Positions 1 to 7,041 of a stretch of 7,430 nucleotides of DNA are shown here, in pieces. The first letter of the stretch is position 1; each line of letters opens with the position of its first letter. The position numbers were made by a program, and so were the translations under genes. The DNA is from Acetobacteraceae bacterium (GTDB lineage: Bacteria; Pseudomonadota; Alphaproteobacteria; Acetobacterales; Acetobacteraceae): contig PLSZ01000303.1 in the NCBI GenBank assembly GCA_003164305.1, forward strand, positions 15,734 to 23,163. Reading direction: 5' to 3'. The notes beneath the pieces were generated by a model. The model was not told the origin of the DNA. It was given only the letters and a program-made list of their open reading frames with translations, and did not search any database.

Positions 1-64
1 GCTCCAGAACGTCATCCTCGGGCTCGACCCGAGGATCAACCCCCACAGGCACCTTGTCCGACAT
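1..64 (-). CDS. 5' end of an unidentified gene, N-terminus only (partial)
   Basis: An ATG at 62-64 (minus strand) is preceded by a strong Shine-Dalgarno AAGGAGG four bases upstream, and the frame stays open to the left edge. The 21 visible codons begin MSDKVPVGV and continue DPRVEPEDDVLE. The second part is encoded by one arm of a palindromic repeat (positions 7-37), so the element contributes to the N-terminus; the same DPRV-x-P-x-DD peptide occurs in the exporter gene further right. The gene follows the chain-length-factor gene on the same strand after a gap of about 186 nt and is probably the next member of the pathway cluster. Too little is visible to name a family. The start is well supported by the ribosome binding site. 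The main doubt is whether the frame continues into a full protein beyond the window. Confidence 0.6.
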   Translation of the reverse strand, partial: MSDKVPVGVDPRVEPEDDVLE

Positions 65-118
65 TTGGCCTCCTTCGCGTGTCGAGAGATCCTCGGGTCG
101 AGCCCGAGGATGACGTTC
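7..118. repeat. Palindromic element: perfect 31-nt inverted repeat with 50-nt loop
   Basis: Positions 7-37 are the exact reverse complement of 88-118. Each arm contains its own smaller palindrome: stem ATCCTCGGG, five-base spacer, stem CCCGAGGAT. The form resembles dispersed GTCATCC...GGATC repeats common in alphaproteobacterial genomes (recalled knowledge, no search run). A diverged second copy is inside the exporter gene at 4768-4847, where the inner stem is ATCCCCGGG/CCCGGGGAT. Relative to this copy a T-A pair has become a C-G pair, a compensatory change that supports selection on, or copying through, the hairpin. One arm is coding for the leftmost gene, the other is in its leader, and the loop holds that gene's ribosome binding site and start codon. 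Confidence 0.9.
69..75 (-). promoter_or_regulatory. Strong Shine-Dalgarno (AAGGAGG) for the leftmost gene
   Basis: The minus strand reads AAGGAGG, then CCAA, then ATG. It is by far the best ribosome binding site in the window, where most other starts rely on stop/start overlaps. It lies in the 50-nt loop (38-87) between two perfectly complementary 31-nt arms, so an mRNA hairpin would display the binding site and start codon in its loop. Confidence 0.7.
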
Positions 119-177
119 GAAAGCCCGAGGATGACGTTCGAGCGCCTGAGGATGATGTTCGAGTGTCCGAGGATGAC
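101..177. repeat. Tandem 21-nt repeat array attached to the palindrome
   Basis: On the plus strand three consecutive 21-nt units follow the palindrome arm at 115-135, 136-156 and 157-177. Each begins GTTCGA and ends GAGGATGAC or GAGGATGAT. The unit looks like a duplication of the outer half of the arm (101-114 has the same ending CCCGAGGATGAC). The first unit matches best and later ones drift. Because 21 is a multiple of three, copy-number changes do not break a reading frame. On the plus strand the units read as heptapeptides VRKPEDD, VRAPEDD and VRVSEDD, then GER; the related element in the exporter gene reads VRWAVDD then GER at the same spacing. There are no spacers of CRISPR type. Confidence 0.85.
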
Positions 178-250
178 GGGGAGCGGCGAACAGCATCCTC
201 CCCGGGAGGCTTATCCTGACGCTGATGGGGTGTGTTCGCCGGCGCCAGGT
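178..250. other. Intergenic remainder with small inverted repeats
   Basis: This is the rest of the gap between the chain-length-factor stop and the repeat array. It contains CGGCGAACA (184-192) paired with TGTTCGCCG (233-241), and between them CCTCC-CCG-GGAGG (197-209), which can fold on itself. There is no T-run on either side, so a rho-independent terminator is not supported. I see no convincing gene or promoter here. Confidence 0.4.
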
Positions 251-1054
251 TCATCGCGGCTCGACCAGGATCGTGGCACCGGTGCCGGCGGCGGACTCCA
301 GGTGAACCGTCCCGCCGCGTTCCGCCGCCAGCGCCGCGAGCAGCGGCAGGCCGCGGGCCGCGGGGTTGGTCAGCCGCAACCGCTCCAGGCCAGAATCCGC
401 CATGGTCGTGGCCGCGTGGGAAGCGGGGCGGAGGGTCAGGCGTGCGCGGGTTCGCTCGGTCGACCAGGGGGTCAGGACCAGCGCAAGAGCGACGGGACCA
501 GCGATCGGGCGAACCTTATTCAGCGGCTCCGGATAGGGCAGGTCGTAGGCGACGAGGGTCACCGGCCGCTCATCCACCACCGCCTGGGCGGCGGCGTCCA
601 GCAGTCCGGCGGAGAAGCTGGAATCGAACGCGCACAGGCTGGTGCTCGGTTCGCACGAGCCGGTGGCGACAGCCCAGTACCCGGCCGGCGCGTTGTGCAC
701 CGAGTTGTGGAAGCGGGTGGGCGAGACCTCGCGCCGATCCGTGGCCAGAACGGCCAGGATGTCGGCGACGGTCGCGGTGTCGCCGCTGGAGGACGTGAAG
801 ACCATCGCCATGGAGGTGGGCTCGCGTCCGGCCTCGGTCAGGGCTTCCAATCCGGTGCCGATGGCCAGCCGGATCGCGGTTCCGGCGCGGCGCCGCTCGG
901 CGGGTGGCAACAACGCGATGGGCGGCGGTTCGAACGGCGCGGGTTCATACGCCGCCTCGCCCCGCAGCACGCCCAGAGACTCCGCCCAGCCGCGCAATCC
1001 TGGACCGGCCAGCCCGGCGCCCTCGACGAACACCTGGATCAAGGGGGGGATCAC
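251..1054 (-). CDS. Beta-ketoacyl synthase chain-length-factor-like protein (short KS-like partner)
   Basis: From the GTG at 1054 the product is 267 aa, beginning MIPPLIQVFVEGAGL. The GTG overlaps the stop of the ketosynthase gene (GTGA), implying translational coupling; a TTG at 1078 is also open but would lengthen the overlap. The protein resembles the short KS N-terminal-like family (PF13723) seen in aryl-polyene and related clusters, with the hallmark TRFHNSVHNAPAGYW at about residues 113-127. Where an active ketosynthase has its Cys (CACASS), this protein has AFDSSF, so the nucleophile is absent. It should be a non-catalytic partner that shapes the chain-length pocket, as in the known ApeO:ApeC KS:CLF heterodimer. 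Its position immediately after the KS gene agrees. The family assignment comes from recognised motifs; the chain length made cannot be inferred. Confidence 0.85.
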   Translation of the reverse strand: MIPPLIQVFVEGAGLAGPGLRGWAESLGVLRGEAAYEPAPFEPPPIALLPPAERRRAGTAIRLAIGTGLEALTEAGREPTSMAMVFTSSSGDTATVADILAVLATDRREVSPTRFHNSVHNAPAGYWAVATGSCEPSTSLCAFDSSFSAGLLDAAAQAVVDERPVTLVAYDLPYPEPLNKVRPIAGPVALALVLTPWSTERTRARLTLRPASHAATTMADSGLERLRLTNPAARGLPLLAALAAERGGTVHLESAAGTGATILVEPR

Positions 1055-2235
1055 GGCGCGCCGAACACCAGGCTGCAATTGCTGCCGCCAAAGCCGAACG
1101 AGTTGCTCAGCACGCGATCGACCCGCCCGGTCTCCGCGGCGAGTTGATACCGGCCGTGAAACGCCGGGTCGATCGTTTCGGTGTGCGGCGTGCCGGGCAC
1201 CAGACCGTGCTCGATCGCCAACGCCGAAATGATCGCCTCGACGATCCCCGCGGCGCCCAACGTGTGGCCGGTGTGGCCTTTGGTGGAGCCTCGGGCGGGG
1301 CCATCGCCGAACAGGTTGAACACCGCGAGGTCTTCGGCGATGTCTCCGACCCGCGTCGCGGTGCCGTGCATGTTGATGTAGTCGATCTGCTCCGCCCCGA
1401 TGCCGGCGCTGCTCAAAGCGCGTTCCATGGCGAGGCGGGCGCCGGCGCCCTCGGGGTGCGGCGACGACATGTGGTGCGCGTCATTGCTTTCGCCGAAGCC
1501 CAGAAGGTGGACGTTGGCGTCGCGCGATGACGGACGTTCGAGCAGGACGAAACCGGCGGCCTCGCCGATCGAGATGCCGTCGCGCGCCACGTCGAACGGG
1601 CGGCACGGTCCGGGCGCGTTCAGGGCCAGCGAATGAAATCCATACAATGTCGTCAGGCACAGCGAGTCCGAGCCGCCGACCACCGCCGCGTCGCACAGTC
1701 CGGCGGCGATCATGCGCGCGGCGTTGCCGAACGCCTTGGCCGAGGACGCGCAGGCGCAGGAGATGACGAACGCCGGCCCCTCAATGCCCAGACGCGCACG
1801 CAGGTAAGCGGCGAGGGAGCCGGTGTTGTGGGTTTGCTCGTAGTGGAAATCCGAGGGCAACTCTCCGGTGGCGGGATCGCGCGCGCGGAAGGCCTGCTCG
1901 GTTTGCAGGATGCCTGACGTGCTGGTGCCGACGACCAAAGCGACCCGTGCGGTGCCGTACCGTTCGATCGCCGCGCGCACGGCTTCGGCGAAGCCGTCCT
2001 GGCCCAGAGCGACCTCGGCCAGGCGGTTGTTGCGGCAGTCGAAGGCGGCGTGCTCGCCCTGCAGGCGGATGTTGTCGAGGGCCTGGATCTCACCCGTCCA
2101 GGTCGGCAACGTAACGGTTTCGAACGGCCGTGGACTGAGGCCGCTTTGTCCGGAGCGCAACGCCGTGAGGGTCGCGTCGAGGCCGAAGCCGACGCTGGAC
2201 GCGACGCACATATGGCTCAGGGCGAGCGGCCGCAT
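1051..2235 (-). CDS. Beta-ketoacyl-ACP synthase, FabF/KAS II type
   Basis: A 394-aa thiolase-fold condensing enzyme of usual KAS II length. It catalyses decarboxylative condensation of malonyl-ACP with an acyl-ACP in the cytoplasm. The catalytic set is complete: nucleophile Cys162 in CACASS, His290 in NMHGTAT, Lys319 and His324 in TKGHTGHTLGAAG, and the C-terminal glycine-rich NSFGFGGSN at about 378-386. The ATG at 2235 is two bases past the stop of the upstream lipoprotein gene (TGACGATG) and has no clear Shine-Dalgarno, so it is probably translated by coupling. The directly following CLF gene suggests that the two form a heterodimer devoted to a polyene or similar secondary product rather than housekeeping fatty acid synthesis; that specialisation is inferred from neighbours. 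Symbols such as fabF or apeO are plausible but not certain from sequence alone. Confidence 0.93.
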   Translation of the reverse strand: MRPLALSHMCVASSVGFGLDATLTALRSGQSGLSPRPFETVTLPTWTGEIQALDNIRLQGEHAAFDCRNNRLAEVALGQDGFAEAVRAAIERYGTARVALVVGTSTSGILQTEQAFRARDPATGELPSDFHYEQTHNTGSLAAYLRARLGIEGPAFVISCACASSAKAFGNAARMIAAGLCDAAVVGGSDSLCLTTLYGFHSLALNAPGPCRPFDVARDGISIGEAAGFVLLERPSSRDANVHLLGFGESNDAHHMSSPHPEGAGARLAMERALSSAGIGAEQIDYINMHGTATRVGDIAEDLAVFNLFGDGPARGSTKGHTGHTLGAAGIVEAIISALAIEHGLVPGTPHTETIDPAFHGRYQLAAETGRVDRVLSNSFGFGGSNCSLVFGAP

Positions 2236-2237
2236 CG

Positions 2238-3536
2238 TCAGGATCTTTGTCCGGGAGTGGTTGGCGAAAGACTGAGCGCGACGTCGAGTTGGCGTTTCTC
2301 GGCGGCGATCGCCTGGTAGTACCGGGCGTAGAACGCGCCGCGCGCGCCGTCGGCGGTCTTTGGGTGCGCCAGGATCGTGGCGTAGAGTCGTTCGAAATGC
2401 TTCATATTCGCACGCAGGTTGGTATAGCGCGGGTCGCTGAAGATTTGCTCGAAGTGCTGCTGATAGTGGCCGAAGGTCGGTTCGTCGTAAAAGATCAGCC
2501 GCAGGTTGGTGTTGTAGACGTCGTTAGGCTGGAACGCGCGTTCGGCTTCGGCGAGGCCTCCGGGACCGACCGGCAACGCACCGTTGGCGAGGATGGTGGC
2601 GCGCGCGGCCGGGTCGTCGTACAGCGCGTCCGGGTCGGCGACCGGCAGGTCGTTGGTACGGCGCATCAGGTTGACGAACTCGTTCTTCGGCACCGGAAAG
2701 TCGAACATGGCGAAGATGAAGGGCATGTCGGTCTTCCACTCGTCCCAGACGCCGGCGACCGCGAGCACGTTATGCGCGAGGTGCGTGCAATTGTTTTGCA
2801 ATACGTTCCAGTTGAACAATTCGCGCCCGGTCCGGTAGGGTTCATTGATGGCGTTCAGGTAGGTCACCACGCGGGCCATCTTGTCGCGGTTCAAGGGGAC
2901 GCGGGCGCAGTAACGATCGCGGCCCAGATTGACCGCGTAATCGGTGGCGATCGACATGTCGTACATGAAGTCGATTTTCGACATGGCGGCGGGCTGGGTG
3001 TCGAACACTTCCTTGTGGAACACGACGCCGTCGAGGATCCCCATCGCCCTGGCTTTCGCCTGGGTGCGCAGATAGGTGGCTTTTGTCACGGGTTCGCCGG
3101 GCGCGAGATCGCCGTGCATGACGAAATCACGTCCCTCGGTCGCGATCCAGTTGGCGTTGGCGTAATGATCGTTGACGCTGAGGCCGACGCCCTCGCCGGG
3201 TTTCGGGTCGCCCGGACCGCAGAGTGTGACGACAGGATAATGCGCGTCTTTGTCGCGGCAGACGCCGTTGAGGTAGAGGATCGAATGGCCGCCGGGCCCG
3301 CCAGGCACGATCTCGGCGCCGAAGCCGGGTTTCTTGCTGATTTCGGAGACGGCGCAGAACTCCGCGTACCACGGGTAGAGCGAGTCGTAGGACGCTTCGT
3401 TCAGGGTGCCCTCGGGTTGGGCGAACAGCGTGCTGGTGCAGCCGCCGAGCAGCATCGAAGCGCCAACCAGCCAGGCGACCGGAGCGCGAAATGTCAAGAT
3501 ATACCGGCCTGGGCCGAGCCCCGCGTCGTGTTCCAT
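2238..3536 (-). CDS. Predicted lipoprotein with separated His and Asn-Cys motifs (putative papain-like cysteine hydrolase)
   Basis: A 432-aa product from the ATG at 3536. A hydrophobic stretch (VAWLVGASML) ends in a lipobox LLGGC with the lipidated Cys at residue 33, predicting a membrane-anchored periplasm-facing protein. A TTG at 3497 would give a shorter, more standard signal peptide (Cys20) and may be the true start; an ATG at 3563 is a third option. Two motifs stand out: GGHSILYLN with His84, and QNNCTHLAHN with Cys250. A His before a hydrophobic strand followed much later by an Asn-Cys at a helix start is the pattern of permuted papain-like families (DUF4105, YiiX and LRAT-like). That resemblance is by eye and the catalytic role is inferred. 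The body is otherwise unfamiliar. The gene lies two bases before the KS gene, so it is co-translated with the lipid or polyene machinery and may process the product or its acyl carrier in the envelope. Confidence 0.8.
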   Translation of the reverse strand: MEHDAGLGPGRYILTFRAPVAWLVGASMLLGGCTSTLFAQPEGTLNEASYDSLYPWYAEFCAVSEISKKPGFGAEIVPGGPGGHSILYLNGVCRDKDAHYPVVTLCGPGDPKPGEGVGLSVNDHYANANWIATEGRDFVMHGDLAPGEPVTKATYLRTQAKARAMGILDGVVFHKEVFDTQPAAMSKIDFMYDMSIATDYAVNLGRDRYCARVPLNRDKMARVVTYLNAINEPYRTGRELFNWNVLQNNCTHLAHNVLAVAGVWDEWKTDMPFIFAMFDFPVPKNEFVNLMRRTNDLPVADPDALYDDPAARATILANGALPVGPGGLAEAERAFQPNDVYNTNLRLIFYDEPTFGHYQQHFEQIFSDPRYTNLRANMKHFERLYATILAHPKTADGARGAFYARYYQAIAAEKRQLDVALSLSPTTPGQRS

Positions 3537-3712
3537 TGGTCTGTCGCTGCCCGCGTCGCCCATGCTGCACTGGATGGAGACAACGTGGCGCCGGGTAGGT
3601 TCGTTCCGCGTCCGGCGACGATATTCGGCGTCCCGGCGTGGCGCGCGGAGACGATCGCGACCTGGCGCGCGGAGTTGTTCGACGTGCGCCATGTCGCGGC
3701 ACCGCTGTTCAC
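3494..3712 (-). CDS. Possible small ORF, 72 aa (doubtful)
   Basis: A GTG at 3712 preceded by a reasonable ribosome binding site (GGGAGAG, seven bases upstream) opens a 72-codon frame beginning MNSGAATWRTSNNSARQ. Its stop overlaps the alternative TTG start of the lipoprotein gene (TTGA at 3494-3497), mimicking the 4-nt overlaps elsewhere in this operon. The first 40 or so codons use mostly G or C at the third position, as real genes here do; the second half less so. The product is rich in Ala, Ser, Thr and Asn, with no recognisable domain, signal peptide or membrane segment. It would overlap the lipoprotein N-terminus if that gene starts at 3536. It may be a real small gene, a remnant, or chance. 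Confidence 0.25.
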   Translation of the reverse strand: MNSGAATWRTSNNSARQVAIVSARHAGTPNIVAGRGTNLPGATLSPSSAAWATRAATDQWNTTRGSAQAGIS

Positions 3713-3802
3713 CGTTGGTCTCTCCCGTTGGTTGCTTTGGCGTTGCCCACGGCCCAGGTGATGAGACTCTGAAGCATGCGAGATCGTGACGCAAGATTCG
3801 GC
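3537..3802. other. Interval between hydrolase and lipoprotein genes
   Basis: This gap of about 266 nt is the only sizeable break in the operon besides the repeat-filled one at the left. On the minus strand it holds a 22-codon ORF (ATG at 3774, MLQSLITWAVGNAKATNG, stop 3709) without a ribosome binding site, whose stop overlaps the GTG of the doubtful 72-aa ORF, and most of that ORF. I see no clear sigma-70 promoter, terminator hairpin or RNA gene. It could house an internal promoter for the lipoprotein-KS-CLF genes, but nothing visible proves it. Confidence 0.4.
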
Positions 3803-4489: not shown

Positions 4490-7041
4490 GCGCTTGTCGT
4501 GAGCGGAGGGCGGGCGTTCAGGATCGCGCCGAACAGCAGGCAGAGGAAGGCTCCGATCGCCACGGTGGCGCCGATCCCGTGCAGGACGGGGAAACGGGAA
4601 AAGGAGAGGATGCCGAAGCCGATGACGGTGCAAAGGTTGGCGAGAACGAGGGAGGCGACCATGCGCTGGCGGGCGCCACTCGTGTCCTGCCCGGGCCGTT
4701 CGCCGTCATCCACGGCCCATCGCACGTTATCCGCGGACTTTCCGCCGTCGCCGCTCGCCCTTTCCTCGTCATCCCCGGGCTTGACCCGGGGATCTGTCGC
4801 CGCACCGGCTTGCTGGAACTGGTCCCCGGGTCGATCCCGGGGATGACGGCTGAGGGGTAGGGGGTGGTGGAGTATGGAATCGGGATGACGGCCGAGGGGA
4901 TCCCGTCGCTCGAAGAACAGGCAGTAGTTCGACCCCACCGCGACCACCAGCAACAGGCCGAACAGATTGAAGATCGACAACGTGCCGCCGCTGAGCAACA
5001 GGATCGCCGCGGTGCACAGGACGGCCGCGGCCAGCGGCAGCAGCACCGCGGCGATCCGGCGGGGTTGGCGCAGGCACACGGATAACAGCGCCACGATGAC
5101 CAGGCCGCCGACCAGCGAGAGGGTCAGCGCCTCATGCAAATAGGCATCCAGCAGACGGTCGGATTCCGTCCGCAGGTCCAACAATAGCACCCCAGGTTCG
5201 TTGAAGGTGGCGATCTGGGTGGCCAGGGACGCCGGGTCGGTCACGCCGTGCAACGGCAGCAGCGCGGTCCAGCCTCGGGCGCCCTGGACCAGCAGCGAGT
5301 CGAGGCGCAGCGCCAGGCTGGTGCCGTCCAGATCCCGCCGGGTCAGCAATGGCCTATGCGCCGCCGCGGCGACATCCGCCAGGAACGGACCGAACGCGTC
5401 CTCCCGGAACGGCGTCCCCACCAACGCCTGGGCCAGGTTCGTGGCCAAGGTCGGAGGGTCGGGCAACGCGGTTTGGCGGGCGCGCTGGGTGGCCTCGCTC
5501 GGCAGCCAGCGGCCGGGGAAATCGAAGCTGTTCAGGGCGCCCGCCGTCACCAGATCGGTCAGGCGGGCCGCGGTTCGTTCGCTGGCGGCCAGGGTGCTGT
5601 CCCGGTCGGCGGTCTGGGCCACCAGGAAAAAGCGCACGTCAGGGGCGCCGGTCTCGCGCCGCAACTGCTCGTCGGTCTGCTTGTCGGCGGCGGACAGCGG
5701 ACTCATGCTCGTCAACTCGTCTTCCCAGTAACGTCCGGGGTGCAGCAACAGCGCGAGGGCGGCGGCCAGGGTCAGGACCAGGATGACGGCGCGGCCGGCG
5801 CGAGCGTGGCCCATCAGGGCCAGCAGGGGAGCGGCGAACAGGGTCGCGCCGTGGAACGGCGACCGGCGAGGCAGCAGCGCGGGCAGGACCCAGCGCGTCA
5901 CCGCCAGCGCGATCAACAGGCCGACGATGGTGAACAGCCCGAGCTGCGCGAAACCCGTAAAACTGGAGAACAGCATGGCGCTGAAGCCACACACCGAGGT
6001 CAGCATCCCCAGCAGCAACGTCGGCCAGATTCTTCCGAGTGTCGCCGCGGGTTCAGCGCCGTATTCGGTCTGGGTGAACAGATAGATCGCGTAGTCCACC
6101 GCCTCCCCGATCAAGGTGACGCCGAAGCCGAGCGTGATGCCGTGCACGAAGCCAAAGCCCAGGCTGACGGCGGCGATGCCTCCGACGATGCCGGTGAGGA
6201 CGGGGAGCAGGGCCAGGATCAGCACGCGGGCCGAGCGGTAGGCAAGCAGCAGAACCGCGGCGACCAGCAGGGTAGCGAGCGCCGATAGACGTTTGATGTC
6301 CTGGCGCATCTCGTCGCGGGTGTGGATGGCGAAGACCGGCGGCCCGCTCTCGATCAGGTGGGTTTCCGCTGCCTTGGGAATGGTGCTTCGGGCGGTGTCG
6401 AAGGCGGCCTCGATGTGGGCGATGGCCTGGTCCTGCGCGGCGAGGTCGAAGCCGGCGGCCAGCGTTTGCACCATCAGCAAGGCGCGGTGCCCGTCCGGCG
6501 ACATCCAGACGCCATCATGGCTCGCCGGATGCGCCTCCGTGCCCAACGCGTCGAGCAACCGCGCCATTTCGCCCGTCGGATCGGCGGGAATGGCGCGCTT
6601 GGCCAGCATGCCGAGGTCGGAGTCGAGCAACGCGACGTCGGCCTCCAGCGCGGCGTGCAGGGCGGCCGGCGTGAAGTGTTCGGGTGTGACCGCCGGGCTG
6701 AGCAAATAACGATTGTGCCAGAGGACGTCGCGGTCCTTGGTCAGCGCGTCTGTCTCACCGTTATTGACGACGCCGAAGCCGGGGGCGGCGCGGAGAGTGC
6801 TCGCCATCGAATGGCTGACGGCGGCGAGCGTATCGGGATCGGCGCCCTCGACCGCGAGCAGGATCATGCGGGAGACGACGCCCTCGCGCAGTTGATCGAC
6901 CAGGATCTGCTGCGCGGCGTTGGGGGAGCGCGGCAGAAACGCGGACATGTCGGTGCTGAGACGGGTGCGGGAAATGATCAGGCCGCTGACCAGCAATCCG
7001 GCGAGCCAGAGCACGATGATCGTCAGCCGTTTGGCGGTCAT
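4486..7041 (-). CDS. MMPL/RND-superfamily exporter with an in-frame repeat insertion
   Basis: An 851-aa inner-membrane exporter with the two-fold RND layout. TM1 is at about 5-24, a large periplasmic loop 25-250, TM2-TM6 about 251-390, TM7 about 416-434, a second periplasmic loop to about 637, then TM8-TM12 (about 639-657, 663-684, 688-710, 793-813, 820-843). TM4 carries the charged GEAVDYAIY (Asp316), the likely proton-relay acid; the matching spot in TM10 is GSNYCLFF, with Asn705 instead. Such proteins with a LolA-like partner are typical of aryl-polyene/xanthomonadin clusters and are thought to move the product out of the inner membrane. The ATG at 7041 overlaps the LolA-like stop (ATGA). 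Residues 711-790, between TM10 and TM11, form an 80-residue linker, whereas the equivalent TM4-TM5 linker has 12. The roughly 68 extra residues come from a palindromic repeat element inserted without breaking the frame. Confidence 0.92.
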   Translation of the reverse strand: MTAKRLTIIVLWLAGLLVSGLIISRTRLSTDMSAFLPRSPNAAQQILVDQLREGVVSRMILLAVEGADPDTLAAVSHSMASTLRAAPGFGVVNNGETDALTKDRDVLWHNRYLLSPAVTPEHFTPAALHAALEADVALLDSDLGMLAKRAIPADPTGEMARLLDALGTEAHPASHDGVWMSPDGHRALLMVQTLAAGFDLAAQDQAIAHIEAAFDTARSTIPKAAETHLIESGPPVFAIHTRDEMRQDIKRLSALATLLVAAVLLLAYRSARVLILALLPVLTGIVGGIAAVSLGFGFVHGITLGFGVTLIGEAVDYAIYLFTQTEYGAEPAATLGRIWPTLLLGMLTSVCGFSAMLFSSFTGFAQLGLFTIVGLLIALAVTRWVLPALLPRRSPFHGATLFAAPLLALMGHARAGRAVILVLTLAAALALLLHPGRYWEDELTSMSPLSAADKQTDEQLRRETGAPDVRFFLVAQTADRDSTLAASERTAARLTDLVTAGALNSFDFPGRWLPSEATQRARQTALPDPPTLATNLAQALVGTPFREDAFGPFLADVAAAAHRPLLTRRDLDGTSLALRLDSLLVQGARGWTALLPLHGVTDPASLATQIATFNEPGVLLLDLRTESDRLLDAYLHEALTLSLVGGLVIVALLSVCLRQPRRIAAVLLPLAAAVLCTAAILLLSGGTLSIFNLFGLLLVVAVGSNYCLFFERRDPLGRHPDSILHHPLPLSRHPRDRPGDQFQQAGAATDPRVKPGDDEERASGDGGKSADNVRWAVDDGERPGQDTSGARQRMVASLVLANLCTVIGFGILSFSRFPVLHGIGATVAIGAFLCLLFGAILNARPPLTTSA
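4696..4899. repeat. Composite palindromic element inserted in frame in the exporter gene
   Basis: The core is an inverted repeat with 27-nt arms at 4768-4794 and 4821-4847 (three mismatches, 26-nt loop), each arm itself palindromic (ATCCCCGGG/CCCGGGGAT). Next to one arm are three degenerate 21-nt units at 4705-4725, 4726-4746 and 4747-4767, of which two begin GTCATCC or GTTATCC. On the other side an 18-nt sequence at 4840-4857 (GGGATGACGGCTGAGGGG) recurs at 4882-4899 with one mismatch, displaced by 42 nt, that is two units. Read with the gene, it encodes DPRVKPGDD, heptads EERASGD, GGKSADN and VRWAVDD, then GERPGQD. The 204-nt span matches the roughly 68 extra residues estimated by comparing the two linkers. 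Boundaries are approximate. Confidence 0.85.

Follow-up and report, generated by a model that had tools for sequence, protein, structure and literature searches.

The closest described relatives of the repeats analysed here are the CGTC-tagged REPs, found mainly in alphaproteobacteria. According to the parts of the survey by Di Nocera, De Gregorio and Rocco (2013, PMC3733652) considered here, these repeats bear a terminal CGTC (TGTC or CCTC in many copies), have a stem of 8-9 bp that starts with AT and a loop of 4-5 nt, end in a short unpaired tail that is CCA in most members, not in all, and are mostly arranged as head-to-head dimers; a genome has many scattered copies of them, and no transposase is dedicated to them. 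In the same passages head-to-tail dimers are called 'negligible' and clusters 'rare', intragenic copies are reported to add 20-82 residues, and the Acetobacteraceae are said to lack these repeats; the Rickettsia palindromic elements RPE-4 and RPE-6 are counted there as CGTC REPs with many in-frame genic copies. In the REPINs of Pseudomonas the unit is formed by two REPs that make up a hairpin, and ordered tandem clusters of them include the flanks (PMC3116915, in the passages considered). REPINs belong to the GTAG REP superfamily, which PMC3733652 treats as distinct from the CGTC one.

In this work we analysed a stretch of 7,430 nt, hereafter the window, that carries two palindromic elements. 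The minus strand of the window holds part of an operon with a LolA-like gene, an MMPL exporter gene, a gene whose weak hydrolase match does not reach the Pfam cut-off, a further gene that is unassigned and two genes of the ketosynthase type, a combination that we take to be that of an aryl polyene type cluster. The 518-aa ORF at 2238-3794 (minus strand), within the operon, gave no Pfam match at 0.001. In relatives, a dehydratase frame follows the last ketosynthase-type gene, often with a ketoreductase-like frame next to it. Among the 80 loci listed, L001, from an Acetobacteraceae MAG, matches the MMPL gene best (73% identity).

An inverted-repeat search of the window returned one repeat of 31 nt with 100% complementarity (I1, 7-37/88-118; element 1) and another with 82% (I2, 4767-4804/4811-4848; element 2). 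The four dimer arms (7-37 and 88-118 in element 1, 4767-4793 and 4822-4848 in element 2) follow a single pattern, in which CGTC is followed by AT and seven more bases of the stem, then by a loop of 5 nt and the complementary strand, so that each has a 9-bp stem, with a single mismatched pair in arm 4822-4848. The CGTC tag is present in all four arms, where the GTAG tag of REPINs and GTAG REPs was not found, and it is outermost in both elements, which places the arms head to head across a gap of 50 nt in element 1 and of 28 nt in element 2. The unpaired tails are CAA, CTC, CTG and CAG, none of them CCA. Since tag, stem, loop and orientation match the description in the parts of PMC3733652 considered, the palindromes were assigned to the CGTC REP family; in each element, two CGTC-tagged REPs, a known alphaproteobacterial repeat, form a head-to-head dimer (Table 1).

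Table 1. Features of the two elements and of the genes around them (positions in the window)
Feature	Position	Strand	Details
Element 1 left REP	10..37	+	CGTC 10-13, stem 14-22/28-36, loop CTCGA 23-27
Frame of ATG overlapping preceding stop	36..254	-	ATGA 254-251; closed by stop 38-36 inside element 1
Spacer between element 1 arms	38..87	-	Shine-Dalgarno AAGGAGG 75-69, ATG 64-62 of gene running off the window
Element 1 right REP (partner)	88..115	-	Stem 111-103/97-89, tag complement GACG 112-115
Outward array, element 1 right	103..178	+	Arm half and three more 21-nt units, the last incomplete
Beta-ketoacyl synthase N-terminal-like gene	251..1078	-	Immediately upstream of element 1 in the operon
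MMPL-family exporter gene, 851 aa	4486..7041	-	Carries element 2
MMPL insert stretch, residues 716-789	4675..4896	-	Nearest homologue has 3 residues there; almost wholly composite
Outward array, element 2, downstream in gene	4677..4766	-	Four degenerate 21-nt units beyond the arm
Element 2 REP	4767..4794	+	CGTC 4767-4770, stem 4771-4779/4785-4793, loop CTTGA; DPRVKPGDD on the minus strand from 4794
Element 2 partner REP	4822..4848	-	CGTC 4848-4845, stem 4844-4836/4830-4822, loop ATCGA; read RHPRDRPGD
Outward array, element 2, upstream in gene	4849..4895	+	Two copies of GGGATGACGGCYGAGG at a distance of 42 nt, twice the 21-nt unit; weak alone

Beyond the arms, both elements carry tandem units of 21 nt that run outward. 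Each unit is composed of the outer half of the arm, CCCGRGGATGACG, which comprises the 3' stem strand and the tag, and about 8 nt of local spacer. On the right side of element 1, CCCGAGGATGACGTTCGAAAG is followed by three further copies that decay outward, and TRF reported a tandem array at 100-178 with a period of 21; element 2 shows outward units on both sides, one side being weak. The significance of the arrays was evaluated by comparing the self-identity at a given lag with that of 5000 mononucleotide shuffles. For the right side of element 1 the lag-21 self-identity is 0.76, a value reached by none of the 5000 shuffles, and for the right (downstream) side of element 2 it is 0.49 (p 0.0004 at lag 21 and 0.011 over all lags tried; 0.001 and 0.049, respectively, when the arm itself is left out). 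The upstream side of element 2 gives 0.50, with p values of 0.014 at lag 21 and 0.24 over all lags, and this array is only suggestive. When the 70 nt beyond both arms were compared between the two elements, 41 positions were identical; the background from 120 other REP-arm flanks is 19.1 +/- 5.9 (7072 pairs, those with 60 or more matches being excluded as copies), and 1.5% of these pairs reach 41.

The initial annotation had proposed, from the letters of the window, two elements composed of a palindrome and outward 21-nt units, a description with which the inverted repeats, the TRF array and the shuffles agree. It had also translated them, and we obtained the same readings, DPRVEPEDD VRKPEDD VRAPEDD VRVSEDD GER on the plus strand from 88 and DPRVKPGDD EERASGD GGKSADN VRWAVDD GER on the minus strand from 4794, within the 851-aa ORF, including the likeness of the final heptad and GER. 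The order of exactly three heptads and then GER is loose in element 2, where the first heptad barely matches and a further degenerate unit lies beyond GER. The plus-strand reading of element 1 is antisense to the operon, hence its heptads are probably untranslated; the right array of element 1 lies outside any likely gene, yet it has the same 21-nt period as element 2.

The effect of element 2 on its gene can be read from the L001 homologue, which aligns to residues 1-715 and 790-843 of the MMPL protein. Because the homologue has 9 nt between these flanking alignments, the net gain in the window's gene is 213 nt, that is, 71 aa in frame; the insert starts and ends with array units. The corresponding segment has 117 residues in the window and no more than 52 in 114 of the 120 proteins listed, the window's own included. 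The six longer segments are those of P0001 (the window's own, 117), P0002 (107), P0095 (98), P0102 (78), P0077 (57) and P0028 (56), and P0033, with 27 residues and among the 114, is probably truncated or shifted at this segment. To judge by these protein alignments, the loop (window 4675-4896) is an insertion-tolerant hot spot, and element 2 is apparently tolerated in the MMPL gene. In P0002 the same loop reads RHGAPFP RHGASFP RHDASFP RHDASFP RHG, with RH at each seven residues, a period that CGTCAT tags spaced at 21 nt would give, as far as the protein alone can tell. Over the usual 46 residues, the loop inserts add 61 residues in P0002, 52 in P0095 and 32 in P0102, and that of P0095 bears PTGAS-like pentads.

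Element 1 is placed where the dehydratase gene is expected to start. On the minus strand, the ketosynthase-like gene ends in a stop that shares bases with an ATG (ATGA, 254-251), and in L001 the dehydratase begins at a GTG shortly before the ketosynthase-like stop, so that the genes overlap there too (P0122 starts MLAATIGK); the ATG at 254-251 is likely the native dehydratase start. The frame that it opens reads MNLAPANTPHQRQDKPPG, continues through the array in another frame (RTSSSGA, RTSSSGF) and ends at the stop 38-36. A second ATG (64-62) lies 190 nt beyond the native-like one, 1 mod 3 out of frame, between the two arms of element 1 and four bases behind the Shine-Dalgarno (SD) sequence AAGGAGG. 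From this SD (75-69) and ATG (64-62), the left arm (7-37) is predicted to be coding on the minus strand, MSDKVPVGVDPRVEPEDDVLE, and gives DPRVEPEDD in the predicted N-terminus of a dehydratase.

The ATG at 64-62 opens the frame of P0214, a protein of 201 aa whose first 21 residues are identical to the window's minus strand from 64, and on this join P0214 apparently is the gene beyond the window edge. After the shared residues, P0214 continues with VLEPEDD VLEPEDD VLEPGDD and then with a dehydratase like those found after the ketosynthase in relatives, reading GNTPLGKPEIAALIPHTG where their conserved part begins. Element 1 therefore appears to bear arrays on both sides, the left one being known from protein P0214 alone, and the composite has more symmetry than the initial annotation gave it. 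The spacers of the two sides are unlike, TTCTGGAG (deduced from the last window bases and P0214) and TTCGAAAG. The protein listing assigns PF22817 (dehydratase) to P0214, despite which a Pfam search of this protein gave no match. The N-terminus of P0214 has 68 residues before the motif IPH; in the other 117 proteins scored (118 of the 120 listed, P0185 and P0230 being without the motif) 3-29 residues precede IPH, VPH or LPH, where the minimum of 3 (P0177) is due to an earlier VPH. Codons for NTP are found on both sides of element 1, in MNLAPANTP (window) and in GNTPLGK (P0214). Most simply read, some 340 nt, the left part being taken from the protein, would have been inserted behind dehydratase codon 9; this insert would have closed the native frame, and translation would restart from within it; 340 nt is not a multiple of 3. 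Of the two locations given in the initial annotation, one largely intergenic and one in a gene, the latter is confirmed by the MMPL gene, and the former has to be amended, since the left arm of element 1 lies in the predicted dehydratase start. Element 2 is apparently tolerated in the MMPL gene; element 1 seems to have displaced a native frame.

The arm was then looked for in other genomes. In the nearest relative examined (G001, the genome of L001) it recurs at 30 places when up to 3 mismatches are allowed, including 4 exact copies, and the reversed control gave 0; arm copies were found in 6 of the 12 genomes searched. The exact arm is present in 3 of 200 genomes of the family; in evenly drawn samples, with G001 counted in each, a stricter array pattern occurs in 3 of 200 genomes of the family and in 8 of 385 of the class, and is thus rare in both. 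From these counts, the arm sequence of the window is narrow, and other genomes have other stems. By plasmid searches (29 and 21 records), arms related to it were found in Sinorhizobium, Shinella, Neorhizobium and Rhizobium, among others; no record covers 80% of the query, and one S. medicae site has outward half copies too. The existence of a repeat family made of a palindrome and a 21-mer composite and present in coding DNA, as put forward in the initial annotation, is supported.

Outward copies were counted strictly as a 13-mer half-arm with up to 3 mismatches within 100 nt of an arm. By this count they accompany 6 of 30 arms in G001 (0.93 expected; lags of 21, 21, 22, 23, 23 and 24 nt), 4 of 19 in G407 (0.98 expected; 19, 19, 21 and 70), 2 of 3 in S. 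medicae (0.15 expected; 33 and 45), 1 of 2 in one contig of G002 (0.12 expected; 14) and 2 of the 3 scorable arms of the window (0.05 expected; 21 and 42). In G006 they accompany 12 of 28 arms (2.05 expected) at lags of 76-86 nt, and in G004 3 of 32 arms (2.0 expected) at 79, 80 and 89 nt, so the strict count found no short-lag tails in these two genomes, where the half-arm pair pattern occurs with 25 and 29 nt (G006) and with 40 and 42 nt (G004). The extra half-arm at 76-86 nt in G006 (loci L190-L209) hints at a regular larger composite. A looser arm scan, in which 46 of 147 arms had an outward half-copy against about 10.4 expected, was set aside because it includes second whole arms at 75-79 nt. 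Tandem pairs of half-arms numbered 42, in 14 of 15 genomes that had been preselected for REPs or such pairs, so that this rate is no survey; the reversed control again gave 0.

The arrays of other genomes differ in unit and in copy number. In G242 a head-to-head dimer carries 26-nt units in 5, 3 and 2 copies at three loci, hence the copy number varies, and a longer conserved stretch around the dimer is also repeated. This dispersed element (L241, L242, L243) consists of a flank with GGTGATGTGTGCACAG, the REP dimer and the 26-nt units, and two of its three loci are near contig ends. The units of G470 have 25-29 nt with A-rich spacers, and in general the spacers vary from site to site, and also from one side of a dimer to the other. 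Two further arrays were observed: in G163 (L250, ~957-1003) an 18-nt array of units that bear GGGATGACG lies beside a REP with a different stem, CCCGACCAT, and its units are thus no exact copy of the adjoining REP stem; in G153 (L251, ~941-1013) there is a 15-nt array of CCCGGGGATGACGCR, possibly coding DNA, with no full REP arm seen alongside.

The explanation that we consider probable is that these are CGTC-REP dimers whose outer ends were expanded by local tandem duplication, and that the genic copies are those that selection let stand. The arrays would arise in place, for example when replication slips at the hairpin. If slippage or a tandem duplication took place at the outer hairpin base, the copy would include the 3' stem strand, the tag and part of the flank, and the amount of flank copied would set the unit length, which would then differ by site and genome. 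Within genes, only those lengths that keep a product would remain. Element 2 would have been kept because it adds 213 nt in frame to an MMPL loop of variable length, and element 1 would have closed the likely native dehydratase frame, with translation predicted to restart at the SD and ATG between the arms. Against duplication in place, what the data show are differences in copy number between loci of one genome, not duplication events. The lack of short-lag tails in G006 and G004 by the strict count, the rarity of the array pattern in family and class and the REP tails other than CCA also weigh against this explanation, as does the left array of element 1, which is taken from a protein joined to the window by 21 identical residues.

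It is also conceivable, if rather unlikely in our judgement, that array, dimer and array together make up a single non-autonomous mobile unit and insert as a whole. The MMPL insert begins and ends with array units, the NTP codons on both sides of element 1 are what a short target duplication would give, and the composite of G242, found at three loci together with its conserved flank, may be spreading there as a whole. However, the match of three residues may be due to chance, the spacers vary by site and by side, and 24 of the 30 G001 arms are without an array by the strict count, which argues that the array is no fixed part of the repeat. Duplication in place and spread of the whole composite may both act, in turn.

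An improbable alternative is that element 1 was kept for regulation, its perfect arms forming a long hairpin in the RNA, with the dehydratase SD and start codon exposed in the loop. The predicted fold of the minus strand from 200 to 1 has -110.9 kcal/mol (z -7.3; none of 200 shuffles as good), and in it neither the ATG nor any of the seven SD bases is paired, all of them lying in the loop region. Nonetheless, any perfect inverted repeat folds in this way. The RNA of element 2 also folds strongly (z -3.1; 1 of 200 shuffles as good), and the folds of both elements are as expected of such inverted repeats. No conservation of the arrangement was found: a protein search with the first 60 residues of P0214 retrieved P0214 alone among 535 candidates.

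The initial annotation favoured a conserved period of seven codons, by which the repeat family would remain harmless in coding DNA. The 21-nt units of both elements, the VLEPEDD, VLEPEDD, VLEPGDD series of P0214 and the RH-led heptads of P0002 at the same MMPL loop would fit, and bare GGATGACG pairs, sought in 8 relatives under less strict conditions, have lags of 14-42 nt, of which 3 of 16 are 21 and 10 of 16 are multiples of 3. The lags of these bare pairs lean toward a coding period; such pairs have no tie to REP arms, may be ordinary coding DNA and were not used to establish the period. In contrast, the lags of the 42 half-arm pairs range from 14 to 42 nt, with 21 in a single pair and multiples of 3 in 18, and among the strict lags of up to 30 nt outside the window (n=10) 3 are 21 and 4 are multiples of 3. 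The outward units of G001 have 14-28 nt by eye, and 21 nt is among the commoner lengths in this nearest relative, beside 22, 23 and 24; it is no rule of the family. When frames were called by GC3, a crude and small test carried out on relatives, only 2 of 112 arms lay in coding-like spanning ORFs, and neither in the DPRV-x-P-x-DD frame. One of them is in a penicillin amidase gene of G001 (L172, 1257-3923; Pfam 2.4e-175, domain 64-505), where the arm reads RDPRACPGDP in frame at codon 248; the other, ahead of an oxidoreductase domain, is probably in a false N-terminal extension. In addition, the insert of element 1 is out of register with the codons and seems to shift the native frame, and its right array keeps the period outside likely genes. 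A conserved seven-codon period is thus not supported, and we hold such a family to be very improbable.

Chance similarity of low-complexity, GC-rich DNA, to which one could ascribe the degenerate arrays of element 2 and the poor score of its upstream side over all lags, has a negligible likelihood, and for the REP arms and the element 1 array it is refuted by the shuffles, the arms in other genomes and the empty reversed controls.

REPs are mostly treated as fixed units of 20-40 nt; here, in several alphaproteobacterial genomes, they look like starting points of arrays of short units. With such REP-seeded arrays, the DNA near and inside genes would vary in length at REP sites, and heptad runs such as VLEPEDD in predicted proteins would have an explanation; these runs call for caution before they are read as protein motifs, as does a 21-nt period before it is taken as a sign of coding selection. 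A bolder reading is offered tentatively, being in our opinion possible and short of probable: CGTC-REP dimers would seed half-REP satellites that keep growing at either outer end, each site or lineage having its typical unit length, and in this genome one insert would have cut off the native start of an operon gene, supplied a new ribosome-binding site and start codon between its arms, and added a repeat-made N-terminus to an enzyme.

It remains to place the window among the known systems. With the CGTC REPs, as presented in the parts of PMC3733652 considered, its arms share the terminal CGTC, the 9-bp stem starting with AT, the 5-nt loop, the head-to-head dimers and the genic copies; they differ in their tails, which are not CCA, not a strict feature of the family, and in the outer tandem half-REPs, of which those parts describe none. 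G001, labelled as an Acetobacteraceae MAG, is with its 30 places an exception to the absence stated there for this family. RPE-4 and RPE-6 resemble element 2 in their in-frame genic copies, a likeness drawn from the description in PMC3733652 rather than from sequence, and, unlike the window elements, no outward half-repeat arrays are mentioned for them in that description. REPINs, in the passages of PMC3116915 considered, have in common with the window elements a two-REP hairpin unit and a tandem order, but what is repeated in them is the whole REPIN or REP, for example at 72 and 112 bp, versus a half-REP at 14-30 nt here. No description of half-REP arrays was found in the titles, abstract openings and passages of the literature covered, including PMC3733652, PMC3116915 and PMC12306157 (RepRanger). 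Of the composite, which the initial annotation did not know as a described unit, the palindrome is described, being the CGTC REP of PMC3733652; for the half-REP tails the remark stands within that literature. The composite is real and is built on a known repeat, and its outward half-REP tails appear to be new with respect to the literature covered.
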